A program made the position numbers and the translations under genes. Below are positions 4,233 to 29,222 of a DNA stretch of 34,157 nucleotides, piece after piece. Under the pieces are notes generated by a model. It ran no database searches. It was not told the DNA's origin and saw only the letters and a program-made list of their open reading frames with translations. Positions within the stretch are counted from its first letter, which is position 1. Each line of letters opens with the position of its first letter. The DNA lies in IMG/VR virus record IMGVR_UViG_3300036818_000129, positions 1 through 34,157 of that record; one strand, written 5' to 3'. This DNA is from a virus.

Positions 4233-4257
4233 AACTTTTCCGTCGGAAGGGGGTGAA

Positions 4258-5428: not shown

Positions 5429-5472
5429 CAAGAGACCTCCGGATACGATGACGCAAACGAGCACGTCGATAC

Positions 5473-6096: not shown

Positions 6097-6486
6097 TCAT
6101 TGCTGACCGCGTACCTGTGCTTCGAGCCGCACGAGGGTCCCGTCCACGTAGTAAGGCGGCATCGTTGCCAACACCGTGCGCGCCGTTCCTTGAATGATGA
6201 ATTTATCCTCTCCGCGGCGCGGGACCCGCTGGTCGCCTCCCCCTGATCCCGCACCGGCCCCAGGCCAGCCCGCCTCATTGATTTGGGTGGGCGACAATAT
6301 CACTTTCGTGTCACCTTGAATGATCTCAGGCGTCAACTCGCTAGGCGCGAACCCAACTGCCCATACGCGCACGACAACATCGTAATGCGTCTGGCTTGTC
6401 GTACCCACTGTCCTACGAAGGATTGCATTTTGTCCCACTTCGAGCAGCGCGCGGTCGAGCGCGGCGATCTCATCAGCAGCGCTCAC
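6097..6486 (-). CDS. Head closure / head-tail joining protein (putative)
   Basis: A 129-residue protein beginning with GTG in a GTGA overlap with the connector gene. It has a helical start (AADEIAALDRALLEVGQNAILRR), a beta body (YDVVVRVWAVGF, DTKVILSP) and a Gly-rich loop (AGAGSGGGD) before FIIQGTARTV. Stopper or head-closure proteins are small beta-barrels of this length and lie right after the connector. The identity rests on size, fold-like pattern and position; I see no diagnostic motif. Confidence 0.6.
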   Translation of the reverse strand: MSAADEIAALDRALLEVGQNAILRRTVGTTSQTHYDVVVRVWAVGFAPSELTPEIIQGDTKVILSPTQINEAGWPGAGAGSGGGDQRVPRRGEDKFIIQGTARTVLATMPPYYVDGTLVRLEAQVRGQQ

Positions 6487-7172
6487 GAGACGGCGATCCT
6501 ACGATAAGGGGCAAGCAACGTTTCGACATCCGGGGGTAAGTCTCCGGTGCTGCGAGCACCACCTGCCAAAAACGACACCGACCGCACCCCGAAGATCGTC
6601 TCAGATCTGACGCGAGGATCCTTGCTCGCGCCCGAGAACGCATCGATCACGAACAGCCGGGCCGCCCGGTCGACATCACTCGGAATTGGATCATATCCGC
6701 CGGTGTAGTCAATGATCAGCGACTTCGCAACAAACCAAGTCCATGGATAGCCTGACGAGTCCAGCCGATAGAGAAGCCCGGCGTCCGCATCGAGGCGATA
6801 TTCGCTTGGATCCACAACTTCGTCGTCGAGCATGACACTGGCAATCGACGATACCGGGTAGCGATCAAGCCGGACGATCTCGGCTTCGACGCCGGCGAAC
6901 CCGCGCCACGACCAAAAATTGGCTCCCCCCCTGGTCCCCCCGCGATGATTGAGTGCATTCGGGTCCGGCCAGAACAGCTCGCTGACGTCTTCCTGCACCA
7001 GAACCCGATTGCAATAGGTCGCAATTGCCTGCGAGGCCTGCGCAATCTGCGACGAGATCAAGGAGTCGTCGGCGCCTGACTCGCCGCTCAACCGCATCTC
7101 AGCGAGCACGGCATCTCGGGTCGTGAGATCGTAGCTCGACGCTGGATACGTGACGGTCAGGATCGATTTCAT
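6483..7172 (-). CDS. Head-tail connector protein (gp6-like / phage gp6 adaptor)
   Basis: A 229-residue protein. The N-terminal half has helices typical of gp6-like adaptors: VLAEMRLSGESGADDSLI, then SQIAQASQAIATYCNRVL, followed by the EEVSELFW-like turn (QEDVSELFWPDP). The second half contains DRYPVSSIASVMLDD and LIIDYTGGYDPIPSDV, where the YTGGY and P-x-D-V pattern is strongly characteristic of this family. The protein forms a ring below the portal in relatives. Its gene starts the connector and tail module, just left of the accessory island. Confidence 0.82.
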   Translation of the reverse strand: MKSILTVTYPASSYDLTTRDAVLAEMRLSGESGADDSLISSQIAQASQAIATYCNRVLVQEDVSELFWPDPNALNHRGGTRGGANFWSWRGFAGVEAEIVRLDRYPVSSIASVMLDDEVVDPSEYRLDADAGLLYRLDSSGYPWTWFVAKSLIIDYTGGYDPIPSDVDRAARLFVIDAFSGASKDPRVRSETIFGVRSVSFLAGGARSTGDLPPDVETLLAPYRRIAVS

Positions 7173-7175
7173 GGC

Positions 7176-7454
7176 TCAAGACGCCCGTCTGAGCGAGATC
7201 ACTAGCGTGCCATCCTCAGTCAGGCCCGCAGCCGCATGATACAGAGGCGCCGTAGCGCCAAGCATTAACGGTGCAAACGCACTCGCATACCCAAAATATT
7301 CGGTCACGTCGAGTTCTGGCTTGCACCGCGACTCAACGATGTCCATGACAGCCTGCACTGCCTGCAGCACACCCGTGGTACTCAGCAGATCATTACACAC
7401 CCAGACACGACCGGCCCGGTTTTCTCGAACGGCACCCAGCATTCTGCTGCTCAT
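7176..7454 (-). CDS. Small protein of unknown function
   Basis: A 92-residue protein with a very strong ribosome site (AGGAGGAGG directly ahead of the ATG), so it is very likely translated. I do not recognise a family. It contains a central helix (VLQAVQAVMDIVESRC) and ends TLVISLRRAS, suggesting a small alpha/beta protein. It lies between the DUF115-like gene that ends the glycan island and the connector gene, spaced 8 nt from the first and 3 nt from the second. It may belong to the head-tail module. Confidence 0.65.
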   Translation of the reverse strand: MSSRMLGAVRENRAGRVWVCNDLLSTTGVLQAVQAVMDIVESRCKPELDVTEYFGYASAFAPLMLGATAPLYHAAAGLTEDGTLVISLRRAS

Positions 7455-7462
7455 GCCTCCTC

Positions 7463-8071
7463 CTAGATCAACTCTTCAAGCCGACAACAGGGAAATTCCC
7501 GAATTGCGCTCCCCGGGGTCGCGTTCACAACCTCGACACCGGCCCGCGCAGTCGCCTCTCCCCAGCCCTCCCAGGCCGGCAAGAAGTCCCGCTCGTAGAC
7601 CCACTCGCTCGGCGCGCTATATGCGTCGTGCCAATGCGACCTCCCGTCGACGCACTTGCAGTCATACCCCAGCAGAACAATACGGAGCGCGGCCATCGCG
7701 ATAGCCAAGCTCACAGCCAGATGACCCCCTGAGCGCCCGTAGCGGATCGCCGGCGACCCGACCCCAGGAAACTCCGGGTTATGGGTGGTCTTGACGACCC
7801 GGGCGCGCGCCGGCGGCGTGCCAAGCCCACGGCACGTCGACACAACGAGCCCGGGCCAGCGGTCAACTAGTGATAGGTTTCCCCAATAAAACCGCAGATC
7901 CCGGAAAAACAACAGCGCCCACGGCGCCAATTCTCCCGCGGTGTTGACCGCGATCGTCGGCTTGTCCTTGAGCAACGCGACATCCACGAGGGATAGGCTT
8001 GGGCCGCCGCCGAGCAGAAACACCGTCTGACCGGCGAAGATCGGTTCAGGAACCCAATATTCGACCGCCAT
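7463..8071 (-). CDS. DUF115-like protein with GGGPSL motif (copy 2)
   Basis: A 202-residue protein taken from ATG 8071 (MAVEYWVPEP). The motif VFLLGGGPSL at about residues 16-25 is a Rossmann-type phosphate-binding loop, followed by IAVNTAG, LFFRD, a Ser/Gly-rich SGGHLAVSLAI helix, IVLLGYDCK and a metal- or substrate-like SHWHDAY. The last part (VVNATPGSAIREF) is nearly the same as in the protein at 17404-17976, so the two are paralogs. DUF115 proteins are found with surface-glycan and flagellin-glycosylation genes and resemble sialyltransferase-type folds; the reaction is unknown. The gene overlaps the cupin gene by 26 nt. Confidence 0.72.
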   Translation of the reverse strand: MAVEYWVPEPIFAGQTVFLLGGGPSLSLVDVALLKDKPTIAVNTAGELAPWALLFFRDLRFYWGNLSLVDRWPGLVVSTCRGLGTPPARARVVKTTHNPEFPGVGSPAIRYGRSGGHLAVSLAIAMAALRIVLLGYDCKCVDGRSHWHDAYSAPSEWVYERDFLPAWEGWGEATARAGVEVVNATPGSAIREFPCCRLEELI

Positions 8072-8405
8072 GATCCGCACGGACGATATCTTCGTCGCTG
8101 ACCCATGGTGGATAATATATTTCGAGCGCTTCCACCGGTTCATCGCCAGTGAGAAAGCGATGATACTCGCCTGGCTGGATTGAGGTGAGATCGTCCGGCC
8201 CGAGCATTGTTACGTCGGTAAGAGCGTACTCGTTCTTCTGCGCTTCAATTCGTAGCTTCCCCGACAACACGTAGAAGGCGTTCCAGCGCGCCCGATGTTT
8301 GTGCATCGAGCAGAAAGACTGCGGCTCGATCGAAATCCGATGGATCCCAATCGTCGGAACGACCAGCTTTGGCCGAGTGGAGCCCCACACCTTCCCAGTA
8401 ATCAC
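8046..8405 (-). CDS. Cupin-fold protein
   Basis: A 119-residue protein containing a single conserved cupin barrel. Motif 1 reads MHKHRARWNAFYVLSGKLRI (His-x-His, a downstream aromatic and G at the turn) and motif 2 has PGEYHRFL with a conserved His. Small single-barrel cupins close to glycosyltransferases are often nucleotide-sugar isomerases or epimerases, but they may also be sugar-binding or regulatory proteins. Start: GTG 8405 (or TTG 8408), one codon or less after the glycosyltransferase stop at 8409. The metal-binding His residues seem intact. Confidence 0.75.
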   Translation of the reverse strand: MITGKVWGSTRPKLVVPTIGIHRISIEPQSFCSMHKHRARWNAFYVLSGKLRIEAQKNEYALTDVTMLGPDDLTSIQPGEYHRFLTGDEPVEALEIYYPPWVSDEDIVRADHGGRILGS

Positions 8406-8408
8406 CAA

Positions 8409-9149
8409 TCACCACCCTACCTCAACCCGATCCGCGATCCGCGCCGCTTCGGCGCGCCATTCATCACCGTATGCCACCCGCTGCCAGTTCGGGTGCCACG
8501 GACCGCCACGCGTAAAGTGCACCGCCCGCGGCTCAATTAACGGATCCGAGGACCCTTCAAGCCAGTTCCATTCCGGCGCGAGCGCGCCGATCTCATCGTC
8601 CTCGAGCCACCCGAATGCGTGAAGCCATTGCCCGCGGGCCGCATTGACCTTCTCGGGCGTCAACAAAAGGTTAGCCGCGTGCCCATTGTTGAAGACAATC
8701 AGGGATGACCAGTTTTTCCGGTAGTAACGCGACTGGATGCGCCCATCCATCTTAACGGACTCAACCGGCTCATGATCATGCTTTACCACGGAAACTGCAT
8801 GGCACGGCCTTACCTTCCGTAGGACCTCGCGGACATCATCGCGCCACAGGAAGTCGCAGTCACAAAAAATTGCCCAACCCTGCCATTGACACAGCGCCGG
8901 CACCAAAAAGCGTGAATAAGAAAATTCCGTCGAAAATGGTGCGCCGTCGTTTACGTCAAGGAACTGCCCATTCTCGACACGCCATGCGCGACAATAAAGC
9001 CCAGCGTGCGCCAACCGCCGTACATCGAGGCGCTCGATCAACAGCGGTATTGTCGCGTGCCGTCGCAAGGACGATTCGCAAACTCCAAACGCCTCTCGCT
9101 CTCGCGTATCGTAACCGATAAAGACGCGAAGTGGTTCTGGAATGTTCAC
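8409..9149 (-). CDS. GT-A-like glycosyltransferase (DxD: FCDCDFLW)
   Basis: A 246-residue protein from GTG 9149, which makes a GTGA overlap with the preceding gene; an ATG at 9164 is an alternative. It opens with RVFIGYDTRERE, the N-terminal beta strand and loop common in GT8-like enzymes, and carries the D-x-D motif in FCDCDFLW for a divalent metal and nucleotide sugar. Near the C-terminus VHFTRGGPWHP resembles the H-x-x-G region that closes the active site in GT8 enzymes. It probably transfers a sugar in the cytoplasm. The substrate cannot be inferred. It lies in a string of glycan genes. Confidence 0.75.
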   Translation of the reverse strand: MNIPEPLRVFIGYDTREREAFGVCESSLRRHATIPLLIERLDVRRLAHAGLYCRAWRVENGQFLDVNDGAPFSTEFSYSRFLVPALCQWQGWAIFCDCDFLWRDDVREVLRKVRPCHAVSVVKHDHEPVESVKMDGRIQSRYYRKNWSSLIVFNNGHAANLLLTPEKVNAARGQWLHAFGWLEDDEIGALAPEWNWLEGSSDPLIEPRAVHFTRGGPWHPNWQRVAYGDEWRAEAARIADRVEVGW

Positions 9150-9925
9150 GCCGCTTCCCACCATTTACTCGGATTTTCCGGCGAATGCCCCAATACCTTA
9201 CGCTGCGGTCCTTTCAGATGGTCGGTGTATTGTCCTAGCGGCATCGAGAACCACACATGGCCAGCGTGCCCATCCTTCTCAGTCAGGTTTACGGTTTTCA
9301 GTTCGCAAACACGCTCGGCGAGCAATCGGCAATAATCAAACGCGAACGCCGAGTGATGCTGGGAGAGCACCAGCACCTCGTCAGAAACGAACAGCCTAGC
9401 AAGTTCATTTACGAACCAGCGCGACCGCTCATTCGCCCTGACGATCCAAAACCCGATTTCACTGTGATACGGCGCGCGCCCTAGATAAGCGAGATCGGCA
9501 TCCCCCAGCATTTGCTCGAGCAACCCAGGTGGGACCGGCGCAAAGGTGACGACATCCGCGTCGAGCCATACGAGCAACTCACCATTCCGGAGCCCTGACA
9601 TCGCGTTCGCTGGAATGACGCACTGCTTAAAGAACCTGACAACGTCGAACCGCCACGAATATCCGACGCGCCGGTCTTTCATGCGCCACCCGTGAATTGG
9701 CGTCCTGCCGGTCCTGCGGCTATCCTTTCTGTGGCGATCGTAAAATGCCCGCGCGCCGTCACAGTCCCAAAGACTTCGACAATCGCCGCGCGGCACGAGC
9801 ACCCACTCTTCGGTATAGGTTGCCAGATCGACGCTTTCGGGCCAATGGAGGGCAAACGTTTCCAAAAACCGTCGGCCATATTGCTCATAGCCTGACGGGG
9901 CAAAACCCGTGCACACGAGGGTCAT
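9146..9925 (-). CDS. GT-A-like glycosyltransferase (DxD: WLDADVV)
   Basis: A 259-residue protein starting with ATG in an ATGA overlap. N-terminal VCTGFAPSGYEQYGRRFLETF is a typical first strand and helix for this group, WLDADVVTF carries the D-x-D, and RAPYHSEIGFWIV follows. The C-terminal segment TDHLKGPQRK shares HLKGP with the enzyme at 11825-12562, so the two are related. It is likely a cytoplasmic sugar transferase; donor and acceptor are unknown. The gene is sandwiched between an SDR-like gene and another glycosyltransferase gene, with 4-base overlaps on both sides, so the genes are probably translationally coupled. Confidence 0.75.
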   Translation of the reverse strand: MTLVCTGFAPSGYEQYGRRFLETFALHWPESVDLATYTEEWVLVPRGDCRSLWDCDGARAFYDRHRKDSRRTGRTPIHGWRMKDRRVGYSWRFDVVRFFKQCVIPANAMSGLRNGELLVWLDADVVTFAPVPPGLLEQMLGDADLAYLGRAPYHSEIGFWIVRANERSRWFVNELARLFVSDEVLVLSQHHSAFAFDYCRLLAERVCELKTVNLTEKDGHAGHVWFSMPLGQYTDHLKGPQRKVLGHSPENPSKWWEAA

Positions 9926-10539
9926 TCAGGATCTTTCGCTCTTTGACCTGCAGCGCGGCGTCCGCCGTGCACCCTGATTACTATCGACGTGACGTAATCA
10001 GTGCTATCGTACAACAGGAACTTCACCCATTGGGCGATCTCCTCGGCCCGCAAGAACCGCCCTTTGGGATGCTGCTCCATCATTTTTACCAGATTGTCTC
10101 GGTCCAGGCGCCGCATTGTCATCGCGCAATCAGCGATGATCCACGGCGCAATGCAGATCAACTGCTGATTCCTGCCGACCGGCCTCGTCTCAACATACCG
10201 GTGCAATGCGGCCTTGGCCGCGGCGTATGCTCCGTCATGGGACCACGAGAACCCTGACTCTGATCCAATGACGCAAATCCGCGCGCCGGAATTATTCTCC
10301 AGAATTCGGTCGCACGCTCGGATCACGCTGCCGGCATTCGCCAACCAGGAATTGGCGATATCCGTATCGGACCGCTCGGCCAGCCGACGGCTGTTAAGAG
10401 ACCCCTGGCAAAAGAGATAGCGCTCCGCATCCAGCGGCGCCTTTTCATGCCGGCCGATCGGGAATACCTTCTCCTCAAACGGCAACCGCTGGATCAGTTC
10501 TCGAACGATCTTACTTCCGGTGCCGCGGATGGCAATCAC
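9922..10539 (-). CDS. Degenerate short-chain dehydrogenase (SDR)-like protein
   Basis: A 205-residue protein whose GTG start overlaps the FAD gene stop (GTGA). The classic N-terminal strand and TGxxxGxG loop are shortened to IRGTGSKIVREL, but the central VIGSESG and the catalytic-type AYAAAKAALHRY (Y-x-x-x-K) are present, followed by a PWIIADCAM-like loop and a C-terminal SIVIRVHGG typical of SDR ends. It may reduce or oxidise a sugar nucleotide, or may be a non-catalytic relative, because the cofactor loop is reduced. It sits directly after the FAD oxidoreductase and before two glycosyltransferases, suggesting a shared sugar pathway. Confidence 0.7.
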   Translation of the reverse strand: MIAIRGTGSKIVRELIQRLPFEEKVFPIGRHEKAPLDAERYLFCQGSLNSRRLAERSDTDIANSWLANAGSVIRACDRILENNSGARICVIGSESGFSWSHDGAYAAAKAALHRYVETRPVGRNQQLICIAPWIIADCAMTMRRLDRDNLVKMMEQHPKGRFLRAEEIAQWVKFLLYDSTDYVTSIVIRVHGGRRAAGQRAKDPE

Positions 10540-11615
10540 ACTGCCACGCCTTCGGCATTACGAAAGTATCGCTGAAGCCAATCTCGTTTCGTCGTATGAT
10601 GTGAGACTGCTTCCTTGATTTTTTGCTCGGCCGCAAAGATCGCGTCCAGCTTACCGGCGCGCACTCGAATGGCCCGCTCGCCGACCACTACGATATCGAT
10701 CAACCGGGCATCTGCGGCAGATCGTGGCAACGCCCGAATAGCAAAACGATGATCGACAACCCGAAAGTCTGCAATGGCCGGGTAGTATTCTGCCATCTGG
10801 CTGATCATCATTTTTGTCTGCTGCTCGACCACGACCCGCGAAAGCTCATGATCGAGATAATACCGAGCGTCTTTCCAAGTTATTCGGCGAGCCAACGGCG
10901 TGTACCGCGCCGAGGTCAATGAACATAAGCCCTTGTTTTCCTGCCACGGGTACAGGCTGGGGAAGGGCCCATCCATCACCGTTACCGCGCGATCGGTCAG
11001 CCCTTCCAGAAGAACCGTCAGGCACGCCTCAAACCGGTCGATGCCGTATCCTTCGTGCGCACAGAAGGTGCAGTCAATCGTTAGGTCCCACCCGGCATCG
11101 TCGACTTTCCCCGGAGGCCTTCCGCATTCCACCCGATCCCCAAGGACCTTAGCGAAGTGAGCGCGCAGCTCATCAACAATGATATGCTTCTCGTGGGTTT
11201 GCAGAGCTCCTTCAATCTTTTTCAATCCGAGAGCGCTCGGATCAACTTCAATAAACTCCGGACCCGCCAAAAGACGGCGCAGACTACCGAGATGGACCGA
11301 CAGCAAGATCCTTTTATAGGCGCTGAAATCGAGAAGGCTGTCCTCTTCTGCTATGCAATATAGATTGGTAGGCACCGCTCTCGCGAAATTCCCGTAACTC
11401 CGCATAAACGCGCGGTGATGCGTCCGGCACGCATCGATCGTCAATCCCGATCGCGGATAGTGGAATCCTTGGTGCAGGCGCGCCGGTATATTACCGCTGG
11501 CACCAGAAAACAGCCGGTCGGCGATTTCATGCAATTCCACATCGTGGCCGTCTCGTAGCAATGACTTTGCAAGATGGCACCCGTAAATGCCACCACCGAG
11601 AATTCTTATTTTCAA
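10536..11615 (-). CDS. FAD-dependent oxidoreductase (DAO-type)
   Basis: A 359-residue protein from TTG 11615, the codon preceding the expected first strand. Residues 1-16 contain ILGGGIYGCHLA, a dinucleotide-binding GxGxxG-type motif, and an acidic residue (VELHEIADRLFSGASG) follows at the end of strand 2, as for FAD. The middle holds HQGFHYPRSGLT, and the C-terminal half carries a long substrate domain. D-amino-acid-oxidase-like enzymes in glycan clusters can act on sugar or amino-sugar intermediates. Phage-encoded copies are uncommon. Its stop overlaps the SDR-like gene, so the pair is probably co-translated. The specific substrate is unknown. Confidence 0.78.
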   Translation of the reverse strand: MKIRILGGGIYGCHLAKSLLRDGHDVELHEIADRLFSGASGNIPARLHQGFHYPRSGLTIDACRTHHRAFMRSYGNFARAVPTNLYCIAEEDSLLDFSAYKRILLSVHLGSLRRLLAGPEFIEVDPSALGLKKIEGALQTHEKHIIVDELRAHFAKVLGDRVECGRPPGKVDDAGWDLTIDCTFCAHEGYGIDRFEACLTVLLEGLTDRAVTVMDGPFPSLYPWQENKGLCSLTSARYTPLARRITWKDARYYLDHELSRVVVEQQTKMMISQMAEYYPAIADFRVVDHRFAIRALPRSAADARLIDIVVVGERAIRVRAGKLDAIFAAEQKIKEAVSHHTTKRDWLQRYFRNAEGVAV

Positions 11616-11627
11616 AACTGTACGGCC

Positions 11628-11828
11628 CTACAAAAGTGCAAACACCATACGACGGCACTCAGCTGTTTCATGGGCCTCCCCAAGATAACCGAACCCCAGT
11701 CGCTCCATGGCATCGCGGCCCTCACCCGGGTCGCTCTTTTCCTCGAATCGCTCCATAAGCGCGGTCGGATCGCCCCCGACTTGCTCCCTGAGGAACGCGC
11801 AGACGGGCTTCGGATATGCCAGTCTCAC
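11628..11828 (-). CDS. Small protein of unknown function
   Basis: A 66-residue protein whose GTG start lies in a GTGA overlap with the glycosyltransferase stop, with GGAG 8 nt upstream. The start overlap and ribosome site argue that it is real. It has a helical CAFLREQVGGDPTALMERFEEK segment and no recognised domain. Such short products between enzymes may be subunits or adaptors; I cannot assign a function. Confidence 0.6.
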   Translation of the reverse strand: MRLAYPKPVCAFLREQVGGDPTALMERFEEKSDPGEGRDAMERLGFGYLGEAHETAECRRMVFALL

Positions 11829-12562
11829 GCAAACCGCTCCTTCAAGAAATATTCGAGATGCTTTTTCCGCGGTCCTTTGAGATGCACAAAATACGCTTCA
11901 CGCTGCCGTCTCCGAATCTTCCCGTCATCAGGCAGCGGACAGTTGTGGGTCAGGCAGGGATAAACGTCGACCACACCAGCACCGGTGCAGGCCGTCCACC
12001 GTTCATCGCCAAGCGGCATCCACGACGCCGGCGACCCGAGAGCAACGCCCCACGCGTCCTGATCGCCTCCCCACTCGCGCCGCTCGAGCGGCCAGGTTTC
12101 CAACACCTCGTAAGCCAAATGCAGAAAACCGATACCGAGAGACCGGTCCCGCACGTAGGCGAGATTGTTGATCCGCCGTTCAAATTTCGGACCTTTGTGC
12201 GTTACAACCATCCCGACGTTTGCTGGCACGGCATCATCGAGCGCACGGTTTGCCAGGCAATCCACATCCGGCAGGATCACGAGATCGGCTTCACTTTGCG
12301 GCTGAGCCAAAAAGTATCTCTGAGCAAATATCACTTTGCTCATCAACGGCATGTGCTCCGGCGCAACGACAGCGCATTCCAGCCCCGCCTCCTCGAGAGC
12401 CGGCGCCGTAAGACTATCAGTCAGAATGATGTAGCGAGCTCCTGGATTCGTTTCTTGCAGTGCCCGCTGGCTCGCTCGCGCCAGCGGCAGGTATTCGTTG
12501 AGCCGCGACGGCTGGCCAACGATATCGGAGTAGAACGCCGCCACGATGATCTTCTCAGCCAT
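11825..12562 (-). CDS. GT-A-like glycosyltransferase (DVDC variant of DxD)
   Basis: A 245-residue protein from ATG 12562 (MAEKIIVAAFYSDIVGQ) with GAGG 7 nt upstream; the frame is open to 12604. IILTDSL and LVILPDVDCLANRAL give the expected strand and D-x-D, followed by LGIGFLHLAYEVL, WGGDQDAWGVAL and a closing YFVHLKGPRKKH that shares HLKGP with the gene at 9146-9925. This is probably a cytoplasmic sugar transferase. A 52-residue ORF overlaps its start by 8 nt. Confidence 0.75.
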   Translation of the reverse strand: MAEKIIVAAFYSDIVGQPSRLNEYLPLARASQRALQETNPGARYIILTDSLTAPALEEAGLECAVVAPEHMPLMSKVIFAQRYFLAQPQSEADLVILPDVDCLANRALDDAVPANVGMVVTHKGPKFERRINNLAYVRDRSLGIGFLHLAYEVLETWPLERREWGGDQDAWGVALGSPASWMPLGDERWTACTGAGVVDVYPCLTHNCPLPDDGKIRRRQREAYFVHLKGPRKKHLEYFLKERFA

Positions 12563-12713
12563 CCCCAAACCTCGGCCCGTACGGATCCCAGACGCGCTCA
12601 TCATCGGCTGGCGGCAACGGAGCCGGCGCGGCCGGTTCCTTTTCTACCCGCCGGATTTCTTTGAGGCGTTCCGCGATCGCCGTAAAGTCATCGGCCGACC
12701 TCGCGTCAGGCAT
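12555..12713 (-). CDS. Small 52-residue protein (unannotatable micro-ORF)
   Basis: A complete ORF with an ATG at 12713, overlapping the FkbM stop as TAATG, and a TGA at 12555 that overlaps the next gene start by 8 nt. It fills almost exactly the gap between the two genes, so coupled translation is likely. Product: MPDARSADDFTAIAERL, then an Arg/Lys/Glu-rich helix (EIRRVEKEP), a Pro/Ala-rich stretch (APAPLPPA) and a short end (DPYGPRFGDG). No family is recognised. The clean filling of the gap supports it, but expression is unproven. Confidence 0.55.
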   Translation of the reverse strand: MPDARSADDFTAIAERLKEIRRVEKEPAAPAPLPPADDERVWDPYGPRFGDG

Positions 12714-13384
12714 TAGGGCCATCCAAGGCAATGGTCACCGCTCTTGGCCCAGAACTCCACCATTCCCCAGGATTGCAGCAGTTTGACCGTCGGCTGGCGG
12801 CGGTCCAACCCATAGCGCGCCAGATACCGCTTCTTCTGCTCGAGCACGACGACGGGCTTGTCACGGCGAATCACTTCCGAGCCACCCTGCACCACGAAAT
12901 GTTCGAAGCCTTCCGCATCGATCTTTAGGAAATCAATCGGACCGCCGAACCATTGGTCATCGAGCCGGCGGATCGGCGCGCAGCATTCTGCATCTATTGG
13001 CTCGCACACTTGTGACGTTGCCACATCTTTAATCCGTCGCAGTCCGACCTGTCCTTCCGTCGCACCAAGCGCCACGGGTCGGATAACGACATTACTCAGA
13101 TGTTGCACATTCTGTCTCAGGCATACGACGTGCTCGGACAATGGCTCAAAGGCCATAACTTCTTCGAAACTGCTTGCCAGGACTAAAGTCCATAGACCGA
13201 CATGCGCGCCCACATCGACCGCGAGCCTCCGACGGTCACCCGGGCAAAACGCGATTGCCGCTCGCAGCTTCGCGAGCTGATATGTCCCGCGGCCATCAAC
13301 AACCGGGCTTGACCTCAGCTGTTCGGCGAAATGCAAGTCGTTCGCCGGCAACACGATCCCTGCAACCGTCTGCGTCTTGGTCAC
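12713..13384 (-). CDS. FkbM-family methyltransferase (copy 1)
   Basis: A 223-residue protein from GTG 13384 with AGGGG 6 nt upstream. It contains the FkbM signatures: AVDVGAHVGLWTL (SAM-binding motif I, about residues 55-67), VMAFEPLSEHV (motif II acidic) and FLKIDAEGFEHFVVQGG near 152-168. FkbM enzymes O-methylate sugars and related molecules. A second copy occurs at 29222-29905. Located in the glycan island next to another methyltransferase, it may methylate a sugar added by the neighbouring glycosyltransferases; the substrate is not known. Confidence 0.85.
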   Translation of the reverse strand: MTKTQTVAGIVLPANDLHFAEQLRSSPVVDGRGTYQLAKLRAAIAFCPGDRRRLAVDVGAHVGLWTLVLASSFEEVMAFEPLSEHVVCLRQNVQHLSNVVIRPVALGATEGQVGLRRIKDVATSQVCEPIDAECCAPIRRLDDQWFGGPIDFLKIDAEGFEHFVVQGGSEVIRRDKPVVVLEQKKRYLARYGLDRRQPTVKLLQSWGMVEFWAKSGDHCLGWP

Positions 13385-13387
13385 CGG

Positions 13388-13981
13388 TCACCCCTGATCA
13401 CACGGTTCGATATGGCGCCACCCCTTCCACTCATCCGGGCTACGAAAGAGGCCTACCAGCCGAACCAGAGAGCCTGGCCGCCGAAGCGTCGACGTCCAGT
13501 CATCAATGCCAAATTCGTAGGGCATCACACCTTTTATCGAACTGTGTATCTGCTTGCGGGGCGCCCCGAGGCGCTCGGCCACAAACAATACCCGGCTGGC
13601 GTAGCTGTAAAGACGATCAACAAACGCAGGCAGGTCGCTTTTCGGCACGTTATTCAGGACCTGAACGCAAATCACCAATCCGAATGTACCAGCCGGCTGG
13701 CTCTCGAACTGAGGGAAATACGGATCGTACTTGGTCGGAACCAAGTTCCAATATTCTTCGAGCGGCTGTCCCTCATTCCTCGGGTCAGCGCGATCGTATT
13801 GCTTCCCTGCGCCGCATCCGTAATCCAGCATCGTCGTTATGTCGAAGCGGTCGATTACCTGCTTGATCTCGTCCCGCAGCTTCCAGGTAAACCGACCAGA
13901 GAACGTCTTGCCTCGGTTTTTCTGATTGTGACTCCGCACCAATTCGCCGGCACGAAAATATGCTTCGGTGAACTCCCTCAA
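13388..13981 (-). CDS. Class I SAM-dependent methyltransferase
   Basis: A 197-residue protein taken from TTG 13981, in a TTGA overlap with the SpoVG-like gene and with AGGGG 8 nt before it. The open frame continues upstream to 14158, but that stretch overlaps another gene and lacks a start with a ribosome site. Motif I is TTMLDYGCGAGKQYD (about residues 49-63); FGLVICVQVLNNV is the later motif with the catalytic-type loop. Small phage methyltransferases of this kind are often found near glycosyltransferases. The methyl acceptor is unknown. Confidence 0.75.
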   Translation of the reverse strand: MREFTEAYFRAGELVRSHNQKNRGKTFSGRFTWKLRDEIKQVIDRFDITTMLDYGCGAGKQYDRADPRNEGQPLEEYWNLVPTKYDPYFPQFESQPAGTFGLVICVQVLNNVPKSDLPAFVDRLYSYASRVLFVAERLGAPRKQIHSSIKGVMPYEFGIDDWTSTLRRPGSLVRLVGLFRSPDEWKGWRHIEPCDQG

Positions 13982-14328
13982 TTTACGAGCCCCTGCAACG
14001 GACGAGGCAGCGGCGAGGGCTTGGTCCAATAACCGGCATCCAACGCCGCGAACACCACTTGCGCGATACCGTCGGCGATTTTGTTCGGCACCTCGACCGA
14101 CGGCACCAGTTTGCCATCCCGGCGATGATGCGGCGTCCGGCATACGCGCTCGCCGCATTCTTCATCGCGCGTAATCGTGATCCCGTGGACAATCATGTCG
14201 ACGCCCTCGATACGCACCACAACAGATGCCCAGGCAACCACGTCCTCGCTGGTGCCCCGTTCCATCGCCGTTAGAATGATCTGGACATCTGGCAACGCGC
14301 GGGCGGCAGTCCCCGTCGCATCACTCAT
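13978..14328 (-). CDS. SpoVG-like protein (putative)
   Basis: A 116-residue protein whose ATG overlaps the sulfotransferase stop by 8 nt. Residues about 16-105 follow the SpoVG pattern: DVQIILTAMERG, a beta hairpin ending FVVH-like (DMIVHGITI), then a P-rich short loop with DGKLVPSVEVP and a final helix (IADGIAQVVFAALDAGY). SpoVG is a small RNA/DNA-binding regulator in Gram-positives, and relatives occur in phages. The similarity here is moderate and by eye. If right, the protein would be a regulator rather than a glycan enzyme. It may instead be an unrelated small beta protein. Confidence 0.5.
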   Translation of the reverse strand: MSDATGTAARALPDVQIILTAMERGTSEDVVAWASVVVRIEGVDMIVHGITITRDEECGERVCRTPHHRRDGKLVPSVEVPNKIADGIAQVVFAALDAGYWTKPSPLPRPLQGLVN

Positions 14329-14899
14329 AACCCATGACCCTCAGCAACTCTTCACCTCCGCCAGTTTGCCACGCGGCATGCGATCGCGGCCCAAAGCTCT
14401 CGCGCCAATCGGAATACCGCCCGGTAAAGGTCGCACTACGCTCAAAAACCCGCGCGTAGAGCTTCGCGGCATCACACGCCACACCAAGGTGCTCCGCGAT
14501 CCGCGCAACTTCTGCAGGCCCATCCAGGCGCATACGTTCGAAACGAACAGTCAGTGCTCCAGACCACGTGCACCAGATACGCGCCCAGCGCAGCATCTCC
14601 GCCATGAAACCGCCCGGGCCCAACAGTCCCGCTATCCACTCGTCCGGCGTTTCCCCGTAACGGCGAAGCTCCTCAATCATTTTCGGTTTCGGCCGCGGTC
14701 CTTCGCCATTCTTGAACCGCATCGTCGAAACCATTCGATCTCGAGGATCGCGGAGAAACACGATCACTGGACCTTGTGCCTGATCTAACGGCGCTCGGAA
14801 ATTGCCCGGCTCGATAATCTCAAACCCCATCGCCCCGACGATCGGCCGAATGAGGTGGCTGCCGCCGTGGCGCAGCAACGCAACCGTCGCCAGCTTCAT
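14321..14899 (-). CDS. Sulfotransferase-like protein
   Basis: A 192-residue protein from ATG 14899 (MKLATVALLRHGGSHLIRP) in an ATGA overlap with the upstream gene; the frame is open to 14998, but that part overlaps the upstream gene. The 5' PAPS-binding loop is replaced by LLRHGGSHLIRP (residues 8-19), and the 3' phosphate motif VFLRDPRDRMVSTM is clear at 47-60, including an R, a conserved D-P-R and a Ser. W-x-x-W-like residues and an FERM segment follow. It should transfer sulfate from PAPS to a glycan or other acceptor, if active. Sulfotransferases are rare in phages. Confidence 0.75.
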   Translation of the reverse strand: MKLATVALLRHGGSHLIRPIVGAMGFEIIEPGNFRAPLDQAQGPVIVFLRDPRDRMVSTMRFKNGEGPRPKPKMIEELRRYGETPDEWIAGLLGPGGFMAEMLRWARIWCTWSGALTVRFERMRLDGPAEVARIAEHLGVACDAAKLYARVFERSATFTGRYSDWRESFGPRSHAAWQTGGGEELLRVMGYE

Positions 14900-15816
14900 G
14901 ACGCCGGCTTGTCCATCTCGGCCCGCAGGAAGCGCCACATCTCTCCGTTGGCCATCTCGTCCAGGCGCCATTGCCACCACGCGAGTGCTGACAGCCACGC
15001 CAACCGATCCGAATGATTTGGATAGGGCAGTGGCCTAGCGGTGTGCAAAACGTCAAGACTCCCCGATGATACCGGGAGCGCCGCGCCCTGCCCTAGTACG
15101 ATCGCCGGCACCCCGGCGAGGATCGCATCTATTGCGGCGTGCGACCCATGTGTCACGAGCACAAGCGGCGCCACGCTCAAAAGCGCTCCCAATGGTTGCG
15201 GCGGCCGCGAGAACTTCGTCCCCTCGATCGGAACGGCACCTGGCCATGAGGGCTTCGGCCGATAAATGACGGCTCGTTTATGCTTGCCTTCTGCCTGCGC
15301 TAACTGCTTTCGGATCTGCCAAATGACCTGCGTCGCGTACTCCGTCGCGTCGCCCAACTCGTGGAAGTCGCAATATTTTTGCGATGAACCAGCATAAATC
15401 ACCGCTGCCTTCAACGGATCACACAATTGACTGCGCGGCTTCGGATGCATCCCCAATTCGCACCAGCGCCACGATGGCCACCGCTGCCGCATCATGCGGC
15501 CTAGCGGCATGAATTCGTCGAGCGATACACGGTAGTGATGCTTGCCTTTTTGAGCCCCCATCCCGGTAGAGGCACGGATAAGCGGCTTATCGAAGAGCAG
15601 CGTATGAGCGCCCACCCTCGAATATGCTTCGAGTATCCGCTTCGAGTGCCCCTTTAGCGCAAAGACGCAGGCGACTTCGGCATCGCTCGGCTCGACAAAT
15701 TGCCCGCTATCACCGCACTCAAACGTATCGCCGCACGCTTCCACTCCAGCGCAAACAGCTTTGGCAATCTCCTCTTCCCGGCCCTTCTCGCCAGCAACAT
15801 AAAAGCGTAGTTTCAC
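14896..15816 (-). CDS. GT-B-like glycan protein, paralog 1
   Basis: A 306-residue protein starting with GTG in a GTGA overlap. The C-terminal half has the pattern RAVIYRPKPSWPGA, then an acidic/Pro linker, LVLVTHGSHAAIDAILAGVPAIV and LGQGAAL, which is the GT-B-style donor-binding face (H, S/N, then A-G-V/I-P). Similar blocks occur in the next two genes, so the three are tandem duplicates. They resemble capsule-polysaccharide-type glycosyltransferases. The N-terminal half (RVGAHTLLFDKPL, HYRVSLDEFMPL) is the acceptor-side domain. The sugar and acceptor cannot be named. Confidence 0.7.
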   Translation of the reverse strand: MKLRFYVAGEKGREEEIAKAVCAGVEACGDTFECGDSGQFVEPSDAEVACVFALKGHSKRILEAYSRVGAHTLLFDKPLIRASTGMGAQKGKHHYRVSLDEFMPLGRMMRQRWPSWRWCELGMHPKPRSQLCDPLKAAVIYAGSSQKYCDFHELGDATEYATQVIWQIRKQLAQAEGKHKRAVIYRPKPSWPGAVPIEGTKFSRPPQPLGALLSVAPLVLVTHGSHAAIDAILAGVPAIVLGQGAALPVSSGSLDVLHTARPLPYPNHSDRLAWLSALAWWQWRLDEMANGEMWRFLRAEMDKPAS

Positions 15817-16652
15817 TCGATTAATCCATCCTCGAGGAATTGCCGAAGCATTTCACCAGAAACGATTTCCGCGCGGTTGAATTGCGTATAGGAAACGTCG
15901 CAGCGGAATTGCTCGCGGCTCCCAACCGGCATTCGCCGATCACCAATCTCCTGCAGCGGGATCGACAGTACGCTTGCCAGCCCCTCTTCACAGACCACCG
16001 GAATTCCAGCCAACAGCGCATCAATGCCGACATTGCTGTAATGGGTCACAACCGCGTGCGCGCCGCAAAGGGCCGCTTCGAGAGGCTCCTCTGCAGCGGA
16101 AAAGTCGACATCGGGAAGCGGACGTGCCGCGGTCCAACTCGGTTTTGGCCGATATACGATCCGTCGATTACTCAGTTGGCGTAAAGCTGCTATTGTTTTT
16201 CGTTCCCATTCGTAGGGTTCGAACCCGCAGGATTGCGCCCCTTTGCCACTGAGGCCGGCGACGAGGATGTGTCCGTTGGCGGGCGCCGGCGTCCAGGGAG
16301 CAAGCGGCGGAGCATTTGCGAGCCGATCCGCCGGACGCCGACGCTGGAAATACGCAGTCGCATGCCGTGCATCTAACACCACCTTATGCATACCGCCGAA
16401 ATCGCCTCGGAAGGCTCGACGGTGCCAATACCCAAGATCGACATAAAGAAAGTGACCCCCAGCGCGCAGCTGGGCTTCAAACAACGGACGATGCTTCCAT
16501 CCGTAGGCTAACAGCAGCTCGCCATCGGGAACGTCGCTGCACCGAATTTCACGAACCCGCCATCCCTTATTCAGGGCTCCATTGACCAATGCTTCAGCAA
16601 TCCGGCGCGCGCGCGGATGCGTGGGATCATTCAAGACGACGGCGGAGCGCAA
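15813..16652 (-). CDS. GT-B-like glycan protein, paralog 2
   Basis: A 279-residue protein from TTG 16652, the codon with AGGA about 8 nt upstream. It includes HILVAGLSGKGAQS, RRIVYRPKPSWTAARPLP and AVVTHYSNVGIDALLAGIPVV, closely matching the blocks of the genes on both sides. The shared YRPKPSW and H-Y/G-S-N/A pattern indicates the same fold and donor type. The differing N-termini and intervening linkers suggest that each copy acts on another acceptor or that some have lost activity. Overlaps its upstream neighbour by 22 nt. Confidence 0.7.
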   Translation of the reverse strand: MRSAVVLNDPTHPRARRIAEALVNGALNKGWRVREIRCSDVPDGELLLAYGWKHRPLFEAQLRAGGHFLYVDLGYWHRRAFRGDFGGMHKVVLDARHATAYFQRRRPADRLANAPPLAPWTPAPANGHILVAGLSGKGAQSCGFEPYEWERKTIAALRQLSNRRIVYRPKPSWTAARPLPDVDFSAAEEPLEAALCGAHAVVTHYSNVGIDALLAGIPVVCEEGLASVLSIPLQEIGDRRMPVGSREQFRCDVSYTQFNRAEIVSGEMLRQFLEDGLIE

Positions 16653-17428
16653 CCGAGCAATCCTGCTAATGCTTCTCCAGTCTGGATTTCACCGGGACTC
16701 CACTGCGCCCACGCGAGGCGTCGAAACATCGGCAAGCGGTCCCCAAGCCAGCATGCCTCGACGTCATCGACTCCCATGACGGCAGCCGCTCCACCGATCC
16801 ATTTCGGCATGTCATAAAAAACCGGAATCCCAGCTGCGAGCGCTTTGATGCCGGCACCGCTGCCCCAGACGACCGCAGCCCAAGCATCCGTGAAATCGGG
16901 ATCTTTCGGGTTTTCAACGCCTGGGTGGTGCCGTACTACGACGCGGCGCCGGGTCACACTCTGCAGACGCCGCAGCATGTCCGGGAGCCAATTGCTGGGC
17001 ATCCCAACGCCACGTTCGCCATAACCTCGCTGCGGCAGCACCAAGATGTGATCGCCGGCGATCCGCCAGGGCTGGAGCTCGACACCGCACAGCGGCCACC
17101 GATCTTCATCACCGCTCTCCCAGGTACCCGCGCCGTTGTGATGGCCGCGGGCCAGTGCAATAGGCTTACAGCCGTCTATCTTCCCGACCCATCCGTTCTC
17201 TGCGACGATTACGGTTGCGCCAGCTTTCTCGTAGTGTGCCGCCCACCGCTCATTGTGCGGATGGCGGTTCCACATGACCAAGACCTGGTGCGGCCTTTTC
17301 ATTCTTGGCGTATCGCTGACTTTAAACCCGAGGCGCGATAGCCCGACCGTAAATTGTTCCCAGCGGGTATAGTGCGAACGCCGAAGCAGGAGACACGCTT
17401 CGTTCAGAGCAATTCCGCGATCTCGCAT
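16631..17428 (-). CDS. GT-B-like glycan protein, paralog 3
   Basis: A 265-residue protein from ATG 17428 (MRDRGIALNEACLLLRRS), with AAGGA about 11 nt upstream; the open frame to 17479 overlaps the upstream gene. Similar blocks: VLPQRGYGERG, VVVRHHPGVENPKD and VVWGSGAGIKALAAGIPVFY. Here the YRPKPSW motif is replaced by RHHPG, the more usual form in polysaccharide-type glycosyltransferases, so this copy may be closest to the ancestral sequence. Substrate unknown. It lies between the DUF115-like gene and paralog 2. Confidence 0.68.
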   Translation of the reverse strand: MRDRGIALNEACLLLRRSHYTRWEQFTVGLSRLGFKVSDTPRMKRPHQVLVMWNRHPHNERWAAHYEKAGATVIVAENGWVGKIDGCKPIALARGHHNGAGTWESGDEDRWPLCGVELQPWRIAGDHILVLPQRGYGERGVGMPSNWLPDMLRRLQSVTRRRVVVRHHPGVENPKDPDFTDAWAAVVWGSGAGIKALAAGIPVFYDMPKWIGGAAAVMGVDDVEACWLGDRLPMFRRLAWAQWSPGEIQTGEALAGLLGCAPPSS

Positions 17429-17976
17429 CTCCGGAAGTTCCTTATCGCGCTTTCCGGCGTCGCGTTTACGATCTCGCACCCAGCCCGCGACGCGCGTTCG
17501 CGGTAGCCTTTCCAGCCCTCGACCAACCCACCCCGGTACTCGAGGCCCTGCTTCGGGTACCGATTGTGGTAATTTCCGCCGTCGGGATTCCAGTCATAGC
17601 CGAGCAGCACTATCTGCCGCGCGGCCATCATCACCGCCAATGCCACCGCCTGCTGCCCGCTTGTCCGCGCCCGCGGCATCTCCCGAGTGTTGGATTCGAC
17701 AAAAAGCACTCGACCAGGCCACTCCCGGGCGGCGCCAGGTGAAACCGTGATGATCCGGCCCGGCCACTCGGTAAGGATTTCGGCCCGCCCGGCAAACCAG
17801 TCAAAATCCCGGAAGAAGAGCACGCTGGCCCACGGAACATCGAGAAACGCTTCATTGATCGCCAGGCATTCCTCATTCGCCAGCAGCTCAAAGCGAAACC
17901 CTTTGAGACTAGGACCGCCTCCTATAAGAAAGACCCGCTTCCCGCGCCACAGTGGCTCAGCGACCCACGGCGTCAA
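17404..17976 (-). CDS. DUF115-like protein with GGGPSL motif (copy 1)
   Basis: A 190-residue protein. It starts at TTG 17976, the only usable codon after an in-frame stop. It carries VFLIGGGPSL (residues 15-24), CLAINEAF, VLFFRDFDW, a QQAVALAVMMAA helix, IVLLGYDWN and EIVNATPESAIRNF. These match copy 2 at 7463-8071, which bounds the other end of the glycan island. The family's known associations are with surface glycan and flagellar glycosylation. The two copies in one phage are paralogs; the reaction is unknown. The first 20 nt overlap the preceding head gene. Confidence 0.72.
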   Translation of the reverse strand: MTPWVAEPLWRGKRVFLIGGGPSLKGFRFELLANEECLAINEAFLDVPWASVLFFRDFDWFAGRAEILTEWPGRIITVSPGAAREWPGRVLFVESNTREMPRARTSGQQAVALAVMMAARQIVLLGYDWNPDGGNYHNRYPKQGLEYRGGLVEGWKGYRERASRAGCEIVNATPESAIRNFRRCEIAELL

Positions 17977-18607
17977 TGCCGTGTTCTACCATTGCTTCTG
18001 CATCCATTTTGGCAAGCGGTTGCCGGCTGATCCGGATGCCGTCTTCGTAAACATGAAACCGGCCACTTGTGCCCGCCGGACGCATTTCCCGACGCTTCGC
18101 GTCCCGGTTCGGTTCACCTTCACCGGCCGCGGCCACCGGCTCACCACTTTCGTCCCCGACCGAGCCCACACCAAACACACTCGGCACAATGATCGGCGGT
18201 GCTTCCCCGCCAGCCTCAACAACCTCGAATAATGCTGTCTCCAAAGGTACTACGGCACCCACAAGGACCCCGCCAGACGCGCCCTCATTTTCTTTGGCGA
18301 CTACCGGCGGTGCTCCTTGTGGCCCGGTCGCCGCATGGACGTCCGCATCAGATGGCCACGCACTGACGGTCCCGCTATCATAGCCGCCAGCAGTCACTCT
18401 TATCGTCGCGCCCTGTGCTTGAGCCGCCTCGCTTCGCGTATGCTTCGGCCAAGGCGCGGCATCCTCGTCCACTAAGACCGCAGCTTCCATCTCGAGCCAG
18501 CGGCGAACCGAACGCGGCTTCAAGTCATGGACTGTTCCCTCAAAGAAGATGTGGTTCGGGCCTCCCTCGGCTTCCGTCGGCGTCCGCGTAAATCGGATTT
18601 TCGGCAT
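17957..18607 (-). CDS. Phage head-associated protein of unknown function
   Basis: A 216-residue protein starting MPKIRFTRTPTEAEGG, with GGAG 5 nt before the ATG. The N-terminal 60 residues (KIRFTR, FFEGTVHDLKPRSVRRWLEMEAAVLV) follow a pattern common to small proteins encoded right after major capsid genes. The middle is Ala/Gly/Pro-rich and probably disordered, and the end (GRFHVYEDGIRIS) looks folded. It sits behind the decoration gene and a terminator, ahead of the glycan island. No enzymatic motif seen. Confidence 0.62.
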   Translation of the reverse strand: MPKIRFTRTPTEAEGGPNHIFFEGTVHDLKPRSVRRWLEMEAAVLVDEDAAPWPKHTRSEAAQAQGATIRVTAGGYDSGTVSAWPSDADVHAATGPQGAPPVVAKENEGASGGVLVGAVVPLETALFEVVEAGGEAPPIIVPSVFGVGSVGDESGEPVAAAGEGEPNRDAKRREMRPAGTSGRFHVYEDGIRISRQPLAKMDAEAMVEHGIDAVGR

Positions 18608-18669: not shown

Positions 18670-19128
18670 TTAGCTGATGATTTGCGAGACGATGGTATCG
18701 TCGTTGTTGGATGCCGGTCCGTATTTGCAGTCCAGACCGAACACGGTACCAGACAGCAAAGACGCCGCCGTCGCCGTAACGACGTTTATTCGCAAGAACC
18801 TGAAGCTGTTTGCGATATCCAGTTCGTCAGCACGGCAATTGATTTCGGCAATCGAGTTCGAATTGTCGGTCGGTGTCTGGGTCAGTCCGACAATCGCCTT
18901 GCCGGTAATATCCTTCGCCCCGGCGCCGCCCGAGCTCGTTGCCTGCTCAAGCTTGAATGCGACCGTGCCATTGGAACTGATCGTGCCGACGTTCACGACC
19001 GCCAGAACCTTTGCCCAGATATCCATATCCACCCAGCCGGACGTATAGGTGCCGGCGGTGGCGCTCTGCGGATTGATATGCGCAACCGGGCTAATCGCCT
19101 CGCTTGCAAGCATGTTGTGAGTAGCCAT
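18670..19128 (-). CDS. Capsid decoration-like / minor head protein (putative)
   Basis: A 152-residue protein starting MATHNMLASEAISPV at ATG 19128, with GGAG 10 nt upstream; the open frame to 19143 includes this ribosome site. The sequence is beta-rich (AVVNVGTISSNGTVAF, ASLLSGTVFGLDCKYGP) with Ala/Thr/Gly content typical of virion surface proteins, and the place right after the major capsid gene supports a decoration or head role. It has its own terminator after it and one before it, so its dose is probably set separately from its neighbours. A loosely similar protein is at 31978-32457. Confidence 0.62.
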   Translation of the reverse strand: MATHNMLASEAISPVAHINPQSATAGTYTSGWVDMDIWAKVLAVVNVGTISSNGTVAFKLEQATSSGGAGAKDITGKAIVGLTQTPTDNSNSIAEINCRADELDIANSFRFLRINVVTATAASLLSGTVFGLDCKYGPASNNDDTIVSQIIS

Positions 19129-19142
19129 TTCATAAAACTCCA

Positions 19143-19174
19143 ATAAAAAAGGGCACCAACTAAGGGTGCCCTTT
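19143..19174 (-). terminator. Rho-independent terminator after the major capsid gene
   Basis: AAAGGGCACC pairs perfectly with GGTGCCCTTT (19165-19174 with 19148-19157) around a 7-nt loop, and the minus strand continues into TTTTTTATTG. It lies 33 nt after the capsid stop at 19207 and just ahead of the decoration gene's ribosome site. This is the strongest terminator I can see in the window. Confidence 0.88.
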
Positions 19175-29040: not shown

Positions 29041-29222
29041 GTTCTTCCCCCTCCAGAGACCGCCACCCCATTCGACTCCGTCAACTTTTTTGGGAAACGC
29101 AAATGAGCCGCTATGTACTCGCGCGTTGGTGTGAAAGAAAACGCGCCATAGCAGTTCGTCGTGCTTGCAGTATAAAATGGTGGCAATTTTGGAAGAGGCG
29201 TTTCCTTAAAGGCCACTCGCAC
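29037..29222 (-). CDS. Small ORF of unknown function
   Basis: A 61-residue ORF between the FkbM gene and the TPR-GT gene. Its GTG start overlaps the FkbM stop (TAGTG) and its stop overlaps the next start (GTGA), the same coupling as at surrounding genes. The ribosome site is poor. Sequence includes LPPFYTASTTNCYGAFSF and a basic region (HLRFPKKLTE). It may be a real coupled small protein or a fortuitous frame in a spacer. Confidence 0.42.
   Translation of the reverse strand: MRVAFKETPLPKLPPFYTASTTNCYGAFSFTPTREYIAAHLRFPKKLTESNGVAVSGGGRT

Follow-up and report, generated by a model that had tools for sequence, protein, structure and literature searches.

Gene content of the locus

We analysed a 34,157-nt stretch of viral DNA, referred to here as the window (positions 1-34,157 of IMG/VR record IMGVR_UViG_3300036818_000129, which is a fragment). 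Positions 7463-17976 hold an unbroken, co-directional run of about 15 minus-strand genes leading from the head genes (protease, HK97 capsid protein and two small genes) to the head-tail connector gene (Table 1). The block encodes two DUF115-like proteins, three GT-B and up to three GT-A glycosyltransferases, a sulfotransferase, two methyltransferases, FAD-dependent and SDR oxidoreductases, a WbuC-like cupin and two small ORFs. Family searches and coordinates agree with the gene content, order, strand and position given in the original prediction, and its description of genes in one direction with coupled overlaps also held: applying likely start codons (for example, that of the sulfotransferase) yields five 4-bp overlaps among the block genes. 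D115b shares a 20-bp overlap with the small gene that precedes it; the biggest gap inside the block is 108 bp (12605-12712), and promoter-like sites in the block were not above chance. The ORFs are intact and their G+C content by codon position is of coding type, which, together with the 4-bp overlaps and the recurrence in independent relatives described below, argues that the block is more than a chance assembly. The class I methyltransferase gene probably starts downstream of a 181-bp overlap. The small ORFs at 13978 and 7176 had no family match.

Table 1. Features of the capsid-connector region and of the module upstream of the capsid gene, in transcription order.
Feature	Coordinates	Strand	Match or other evidence
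Methyltransferase	31061..31600	-	phrog_6636, E 7.6e-13
FkbM methyltransferase	29222..29905	-	PF05050, E 4e-14
TPR protein with C-terminal GT9-like domain (TPR-GT)	27379..29040	-	PF01075, E 2.7e-5; TPR families
Fibre-like protein, 1504 aa	21904..26418	-	Gly-rich part and diverged repeats
HK97-type major capsid protein; left slot border	19207..20649	-	PF05065, E 2e-43
Small head protein	18670..19143	-	phrog_28483, E 2.6e-38
Small protein, last resident gene before insertion	17957..18607	-	
D115b, DUF115-like, first island gene	17404..17976	-	phrog_4603, E 1.4e-27
GT-B 1	16631..17479	-	KpsC/WbbB-like fold; likely start ATG 17428
GT-B 2, family of GT-B 1	15813..16652	-	Alignment A3 and fold
GT-B 3, family of GT-B 1	14896..15816	-	Alignment A3 and fold
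Sulfotransferase	14321..14998	-	PF00685, E 5e-9, above cut-off; likely start ATG 14899
Small ORF	13978..14328	-	
Class I methyltransferase	13388..14158	-	PF13489, E 1.9e-5 (below cut-off); phrog_24759, E 3e-9
FkbM methyltransferase	12713..13384	-	PF05050, E 6e-12
GT-A-like (GTA11825)	11825..12604	-	DxD motif only
Small ORF, 66 aa, fills gap	11628..11828	-	
FAD-dependent oxidoreductase, DAO type	10536..11615	-	PF01266, E 3e-7
Short SDR oxidoreductase, 205 aa	9922..10539	-	PF13561, E 1.5e-10
GT-A-like with DxD	9146..9925	-	Homologues in other phage glycan clusters
GT-A, GT8/WbbM-like (GTA8409)	8409..9164	-	phrog_28018, E 1.8e-73
Cupin, WbuC-like	8046..8408	-	PF07883, E 2.8e-9
D115a, DUF115-like, last glycan gene	7463..8143	-	phrog_4603, E 2.4e-28
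Small ORF between D115a and connector	7176..7454	-	
Head-tail connector; right slot border	6483..7172	-	phrog_442, E 2.6e-27

Relationships of the encoded enzymes

Matches to phrog_4603, a family annotated with the predicted activity of alpha-2,3-sialyltransferase, cover most of each DUF115-like protein. Against PF01973 (DUF115, MptE-like), D115a and D115b scored 21.1 and 17.6 bits, below the gathering cut-off of 34.6 bits, and a DUF115 relative from locus L070 scored 31.6 bits. The structure model of D115a, whose likely start is ATG 8071, had a pLDDT of 81, and the fold nearest to the DUF115 model was that of MptE (8sd5), a pterin kinase (probability 0.99, TM 0.41, E 0.02). Scans for DUF115 used the narrower alignment A7, A4 being too divergent, and a tree placed D115a with slot-resident DUF115 proteins of prophages. 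We rejected the idea that the two terminal DUF115 genes served as recombination arms (41% protein identity; their pairing had no tree support). A literature search combining DUF115 with phage found nothing. The Maf enzymes are part of the DUF115 group. Maf enzymes attach O-linked glycans to flagellin while it is in the cytosol; CMP-Kdo is accepted by one of them (PMC11339370).

All three predicted GT-B assignments were backed by profile and by fold, with KpsC or WbbB accounting for 17 of 18 fold-search matches at E <= 0.001 (probability 0.99-1.00); rows from the phage collection were left out of the alignments used for structure prediction. The trio shares its fold with the retaining beta-Kdo transferases KpsC, WbbB and KrkA (GT99, GT107 and GT140). 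By contrast with those enzymes, GT-B 1 and GT-B 2 lack the QXXXD motif that holds the Asp nucleophile; GT-B 3 has QKYCD near the expected QXXXD, an uncertain assignment, and the motif is present in L061, L062 and L064. The three GT-A assignments fared unevenly. That of GTA8409 is supported, with relatives in 50 viral loci, and the GT-A family found in the slot comes nearest to glycogenin (E 1e-3), an enzyme that adds glucose to protein. The enzyme at 9146 is backed by its homologues in phage glycan clusters, whereas GTA11825 had no family or profile match and no homologue in other phage glycan clusters or related loci, and is recognised by its DxD motif. Profile comparison gave no support for placing either of these two in the slot GT-A family.

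Homologues of the class I methyltransferase occur in viral glycan-cluster loci and in related head loci. The NCBIfam model nearest to the cupin is WbuC (TIGR04366, E 1.2e-6, below cut-off). Direct phmmer searches found no homologue of the FAD enzyme, the SDR enzyme, the sulfotransferase, GTA11825 or the small ORF at 13978 in the related loci examined, and neither phages nor viral contigs nor 289 genomes yielded a relative of the FAD enzyme. None of the block genes encodes a polytopic membrane protein, and no lipid-linked initiating transferase, flippase or polymerase was recognisable there.

We also observed a second glycan module, absent from the original prediction, at 27379-31600 upstream of the capsid gene, where FkbM and TPR-GT genes lie beside the fibre-like gene. 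TPR-GT is 46-53% identical to relatives in L229-L232, and relatives of the fibre-like protein lie next to TPR-GT in the same loci; the FkbM gene is conserved beside TPR-GT in L229 and L230, and the methyltransferase has a counterpart in L229. The TPR part of TPR-GT matches that of protein O-GlcNAc transferase, a similarity that is generic for TPR sequences.

A variable slot in the head operon of related phages

The phage group is siphovirus-like, and its closest relatives include alphaproteobacterial prophages. Single-sequence queries with the capsid and the 1504-aa protein had no match among viral contigs; an alignment-based capsid query retrieved the capsids of relatives, which are 35-54% identical to that of the window. 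Comparison with these relatives uncovered presence and absence of glycan genes at a fixed site: of 115 related head loci, 75 have a capsid-connector slot no longer than 1.14 kb and 40 have a filled one, and L085 and L052 provide exact empty sites. The small head protein gene directly follows the capsid gene and is conserved, likewise in L052 and many other loci, and in L085 the homologue of the last resident gene adjoins the connector gene. A DUF115 gene is present in 10 of the 40 filled slots and in none of the 75 short ones. Most locus sampling was seeded from the capsid, with few searches seeded otherwise, so the sample is biased towards the capsid neighbourhood. When DUF115 alone was the query, all 12 matches at 35% identity or more had a connector gene downstream, and these DUF115 genes mostly adjoin the connector gene or overlap it by 4-16 bp.

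Smaller cassettes in the slot join DUF115 and GT-A genes to an acyl-, methyl- or sulfotransferase gene; some consist of acyltransferase, GT-A and DUF115, others of methyltransferase, GT-A and DUF115, and a further type of FkbM, sulfotransferase, GT-A, methyltransferase and DUF115. The slot acyltransferase is near the NeuD type. Cassettes in prophages of Mesorhizobium loti DSM 2626 (L141), a Rhizobiaceae strain (L140), Bauldia (L182) and L226 occupy the same slot as in the window and likewise combine DUF115, GT-A and tailoring enzymes, but have only 3-6 glycan genes, and their sulfo- and methyltransferases belong to families other than the window's. L226, whose FkbM gene was identified by Pfam, preserves the window's core order between capsid and connector (D115-GTB-GTB-FkbM-GTA-connector). 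A unique position is not supported, as many related phages and prophages keep smaller glycan cassettes in this slot. The set stands out by its size, with a capsid-to-connector span of 12.0 kb, 9.2 kb being the runner-up among relatives.

Two unrelated phages, Caulobacter phage CcrColossus and a Manatee Spring podovirus, also have overlapping gene sets, placed among their late or structural genes. In CcrColossus, gp126-gp129 correspond to DUF115, two GT-Bs and GTA8409 in the window's order (28-44% identity, with 44% for GTA8409 and gp129). However, this is a jumbo phage whose related genes lie between tail and lysis genes, away from the capsid, and no sulfotransferase, FAD, SDR or cupin gene was seen at that locus. 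Viral contigs L019-L050 carry large glycosyltransferase clusters in which, as in the window, GTA8409, arrays of the GT-B family, FkbM and cupin genes occur together, but their structural genes have no detectable relation to the window's. The LPS-type gene clusters of cyanophages and pelagiphages are further large glycosyltransferase clusters.

A proposed role in virion glycosylation

On balance, we favour with modest confidence the view that the block entered the head operon as a cargo cassette, at a slot of fixed place and variable content, and would act as a cytosolic, lipid-independent glycosylation line for virion proteins. The cassette would be transcribed together with the head genes, and the DUF115-like and other transferases would attach sugars to freshly synthesised proteins of the virion head, neck or fibre, the virion being the putative substrate. 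Donors would come from host nucleotide-sugar pools and may include CMP-ulosonic acids. DUF115 would be the committing transferase, the GT-B and GT-A enzymes would lengthen the sugars, and the methyl-, sulfo- and redox enzymes would tailor them. The TPR-GT/FkbM module may act similarly on the neighbouring fibre-like protein.

Consistent with virion glycosylation are the empty sites and the confinement of DUF115 to filled slots, the return of the DUF115-only search to the head operon, the varied glycan-type genes in the slots of relatives and the core order in L226, the proximity of the slot GT-A to a protein-glucosylating enzyme, the linkage of TPR-GT to a fibre-like gene and the precedent of Maf. 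Virion glycans are known on the capsid and tail tube of mycobacteriophages, where phage-encoded enzymes are likewise the presumed agents of the modification (Freeman 2023, as cited in PMC12619734). Counting against it are the DUF115 scores below the PF01973 cut-off and the resemblance to a pterin kinase, the two GT-Bs lacking the nucleophile motif, the other, non-glycan genes that fill the L101 slot, the location of the CcrColossus genes and the capsid-biased sampling.

The original prediction, supported in part, had offered either virion glycosylation or alteration of the host surface as the use of a putative methylated, sulfated glycan. The former is the better of the two, because DUF115 genes of relatives are linked to head and connector genes, usually adjoining the latter, and because the block lacks polytopic membrane proteins and recognisable lipid-linked initiating transferase, flippase and polymerase genes. 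Remodelling of the host surface, with LPS or capsule precursors modified late or in lysogens so as to block re-adsorption or superinfection, is unlikely, although it draws on the fold relatives KpsC and WbbB, which make capsule linker and O-antigen, on the similarity of the cupin to WbuC of O-antigen clusters and of the slot acyltransferase to NeuD, and on the prophage nature of the relatives. Within the late head operon the block has no space for a separate promoter, and minimal cassettes of three genes look too small to make a surface polymer. It is less probable still that DUF115 has the virion as its target and the remainder of the block is for the most part unrelated cargo collected at a permissive site: the non-glycan genes in L101, the very long ORFs in the L094 slot and the four enzyme genes without homologues in the related loci examined would fit such a hotspot, but the enzyme types are coherent, their genes overlap within one operon and L182, L140, L070 and L226 repeat the combination of types. 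Sugar decoration of phage DNA bases is very improbable; virus-encoded DNA-glycosylating glycosyltransferases are known (Pyle 2024, as cited in PMC12619734), but no base-modifying enzyme is present in the window (itself from a fragment), the genes are linked to those of the head, and enzymes of the sulfotransferase, FkbM and acyltransferase types suit sugars carried by protein or polysaccharide. Nor does the block fit a gtr-type serotype-conversion cassette, which has a polytopic membrane flippase and transferase next to att/int: the block encodes no polytopic membrane protein, and no integrase lies nearby in the window.

Returning to virion glycosylation, a more specific version is doubtful, namely that DUF115 is quasi-resident in the head-completion operon and founds a new lipid-independent class of virion glycosylation, using CMP-ulosonic acids (host CMP-Kdo or similar), Kdo-fold enzymes with a changed catalytic residue, and methyl and sulfate caps. 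The capsid-connector slot is a specific, testable site at which phages swap glycan enzymes of varied number and chemistry, and the prophage of Mesorhizobium loti DSM 2626, a cultured strain, opens the question to experiment. Should the virion prove to be the target, cassette exchange would let phages of Gram-negative bacteria change the sugars that coat their particles, with bearing on adsorption, stability and recognition of the particles, and the cassettes would be a source of enzymes that glycosylate proteins in the cytosol without a lipid carrier.

Organisation of the late genes and the glycan island

The minus strand carries all late genes of the window, first unknown and virion-like genes, an FkbM methyltransferase, TPR-GT9, a 1504-aa fibre-like protein and a ClpP-type head protease; then HK97 capsid, 18670, 17957, the island, 7176 and connector 6483; then neck and tail-terminator genes, the major tail protein and the tape measure. 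The window is an entire IMG/VR record (linear, 34,157 bases), carries no tRNA gene and is probably a fragment. All of the enzyme classes named in the original prediction for the island are present, but one of its three GT-A calls (11825) is a DxD motif alone. Fitting starts to the respective families removes most of the long overlaps, after which most genes of the block overlap slightly or lie a short distance apart (largest gap, 108 bp); G+C in the block (~0.55-0.62) differs little from that of neighbouring genes. Two strong terminator-like hairpins follow the capsid gene and 18670 (Table), and may step expression of the island down relative to capsid, which would suit enzymes. The count of terminator-like sites in the region is only slightly above chance.

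Coordinates of features in the window and in related loci
Feature	Coordinates	Strand
D115a (DUF115-like 7463), fitted start	ATG 8071	minus
GT-B 1 (16631), fitted start	ATG 17428	minus
SULF (sulfotransferase 14321), fitted start	ATG 14899	minus
Hairpin after capsid gene	19148-19174	minus
Hairpin after 18670	18631-18659	minus
Region with the probable second cargo block, upstream of protease	21904-34157
L101, Kelch-like gene	13651-14805
L231, TPR-GT ORF	7353-9641
L232, TPR-GT ORF	7365-9623
L228, chromosomal cluster	2109-10482
L019, GT-B array	10669-16975

A variably filled slot between capsid and connector

In Bradyrhizobium phage ppBdUSDA122-1 (L052), the capsid gene and an 18670 homologue are followed directly by the connector homologue, and locus L085 reads capsid-18670-17957-connector with no further gene in between; these empty orders fix the insertion site after 17957 and before the connector. 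Searches with a capsid alignment recovered 80 viral loci and, in sequenced bacterial genomes, 78 more; slot length was scored in the 115 loci with an identified capsid and connector. The capsid-connector distance was at most 1.14 kb in 75 loci, none with DUF115, and 1.16 to 9.25 kb in the other 40, of which 10 had DUF115 (L057, L058, L061, L062, L064, L073, L139, L140, L141, L182); a minority of the remaining filled slots had contents that could be assigned. The distance in the window is 12.03 kb. A related phage, L101, has the same slot filled by a Kelch-like gene and no recognisable glycan enzymes, indicating that glycan genes are not the only occupants of the slot.

We also searched viral contigs with a narrow DUF115 alignment alone. 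Eleven of the 18 loci recovered were flanked by capsid and connector, and a twelfth had terminase upstream and connector downstream. The connector lay downstream of all 12 matches with at least 35% identity, the pairs mostly abutting or overlapping by 4-16 bp. Since L239 and L243 duplicate the contigs of L057 and L058, and L238 shares the layout of L239, independent new cases number nearer nine. Among 385 genomes from the class of the Mesorhizobium loti genome, DUF115 occurred in four, one being M. loti itself (L224-L226 come from this search). A second DUF115 locus of the Bauldia MAG, L227, is likewise flanked by capsid and connector.

Gene content of slots and DUF115 loci in relatives
Locus	Content
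L058, L235, L242	hexapeptide acyltransferase, GT-A, D115
L141 (M. loti prophage)	D115, acyltransferase, GT-A
L237	methyltransferase, GT-A, D115
L182 (Bauldia)	FkbM, sulfotransferase (PF03567), GT-A, methyltransferase, GT-A, D115
L140	GT-A-like, methyltransferase, sulfotransferase-like (PF13469, just under cut-off), methyltransferase, GT-A, D115
L070	D115, methyltransferase, FkbM, GT-A, D115-like, TylF, sulfotransferase-like (by eye; no NCBIfam match), start of GTA8409 homologue
L225	capsid, D115 (truncated frame), connector
L226	capsid-D115-GTB-GTB-FkbM-GTA8409-connector
L224	D115-GTB-GTB-GT9-like-GTA8409; capsid gene not found nearby

Several GT-A assignments in relatives are based on the slot GT-A alignment and its DxD-type motif.

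Enzyme identity

Profile comparison places the slot GT-A closest to glycogenin, a GT8 enzyme (E about 1e-3); the slot acyltransferase is closest to NeuD/PglB-type sugar acetyltransferases. The D115a model (pLDDT 81) had a single sensible fold match, archaeal 8sd5, of MptE type (prob 0.99, TM 0.41), with no match at E 0.001; by profile, the best solved relative was an alpha-2,3/8-sialyltransferase (E 0.006). The L228 cluster holds two cytidylyltransferases; its remote DUF115 homologue has a cytidylyltransferase and a NeuB-cupin protein as neighbours, suggesting that members of the DUF115 family act as CMP-ulosonic acid transferases.

The GT-B model (pLDDT 80) matches KpsC and WbbB, for whose type a QXXXD nucleophile motif is reported (PMC12887879). 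This motif is retained in the GT-Bs of L061, L062 and L064 and is not kept in window GT-Bs 16631 and 15813; 14896 has QKYCD, two residues off the expected position. Based on these matches and the motif survey, the donor could be CMP-Kdo-like; judged from sequence, at least two of the three window GT-Bs cannot use the standard nucleophile. Separately, GT-B genes of this family stand in arrays of up to five in L019 and other marine-type loci, on viral contigs with structural genes unrelated to those of the window.

A probable second cargo block upstream of the protease

L229 and L230 both carry the set of 31978, 30612, FkbM 29222, TPR-GT 27379 and the fibre-like gene, with MT31061 added in L229; L231 and L232 retain 31978, 30612, TPR-GT and the fibre-like repeats. 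The TPR-GT ORF of the latter two has an extra N-terminal domain, methyltransferase-like by eye, and looks like a natural fusion of methyltransferase and TPR-GT activities. In L230 the set is closely preceded by a portal-like gene and closely followed by homologues of the connector, D115 and GTA8409. Portal and protease matches are within about 2 kb of each other in relatives, whereas the 12 kb upstream of the protease in the window yielded neither portal nor terminase; a second large insertion is therefore likely to separate portal from protease. The block seemingly so placed holds TPR-GT, FkbM, a methyltransferase, the 1504-aa repeat protein and 31978.

Proposed function of the island

Glycosylation of phage virions and clusters of phage glycosyltransferase genes are both known; in open-licence papers we found no description of the capsid-connector slot, of DUF115 as its resident or of so large a cassette there. 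Remodelling of the host surface by the island enzymes is possible, and DNA modification less so. We favour modification of virion proteins, which the island enzymes would carry out in the cytosol: DUF115 is linked to the connector, most cassettes are small, and the island lies in the late operon and encodes no polytopic membrane protein.
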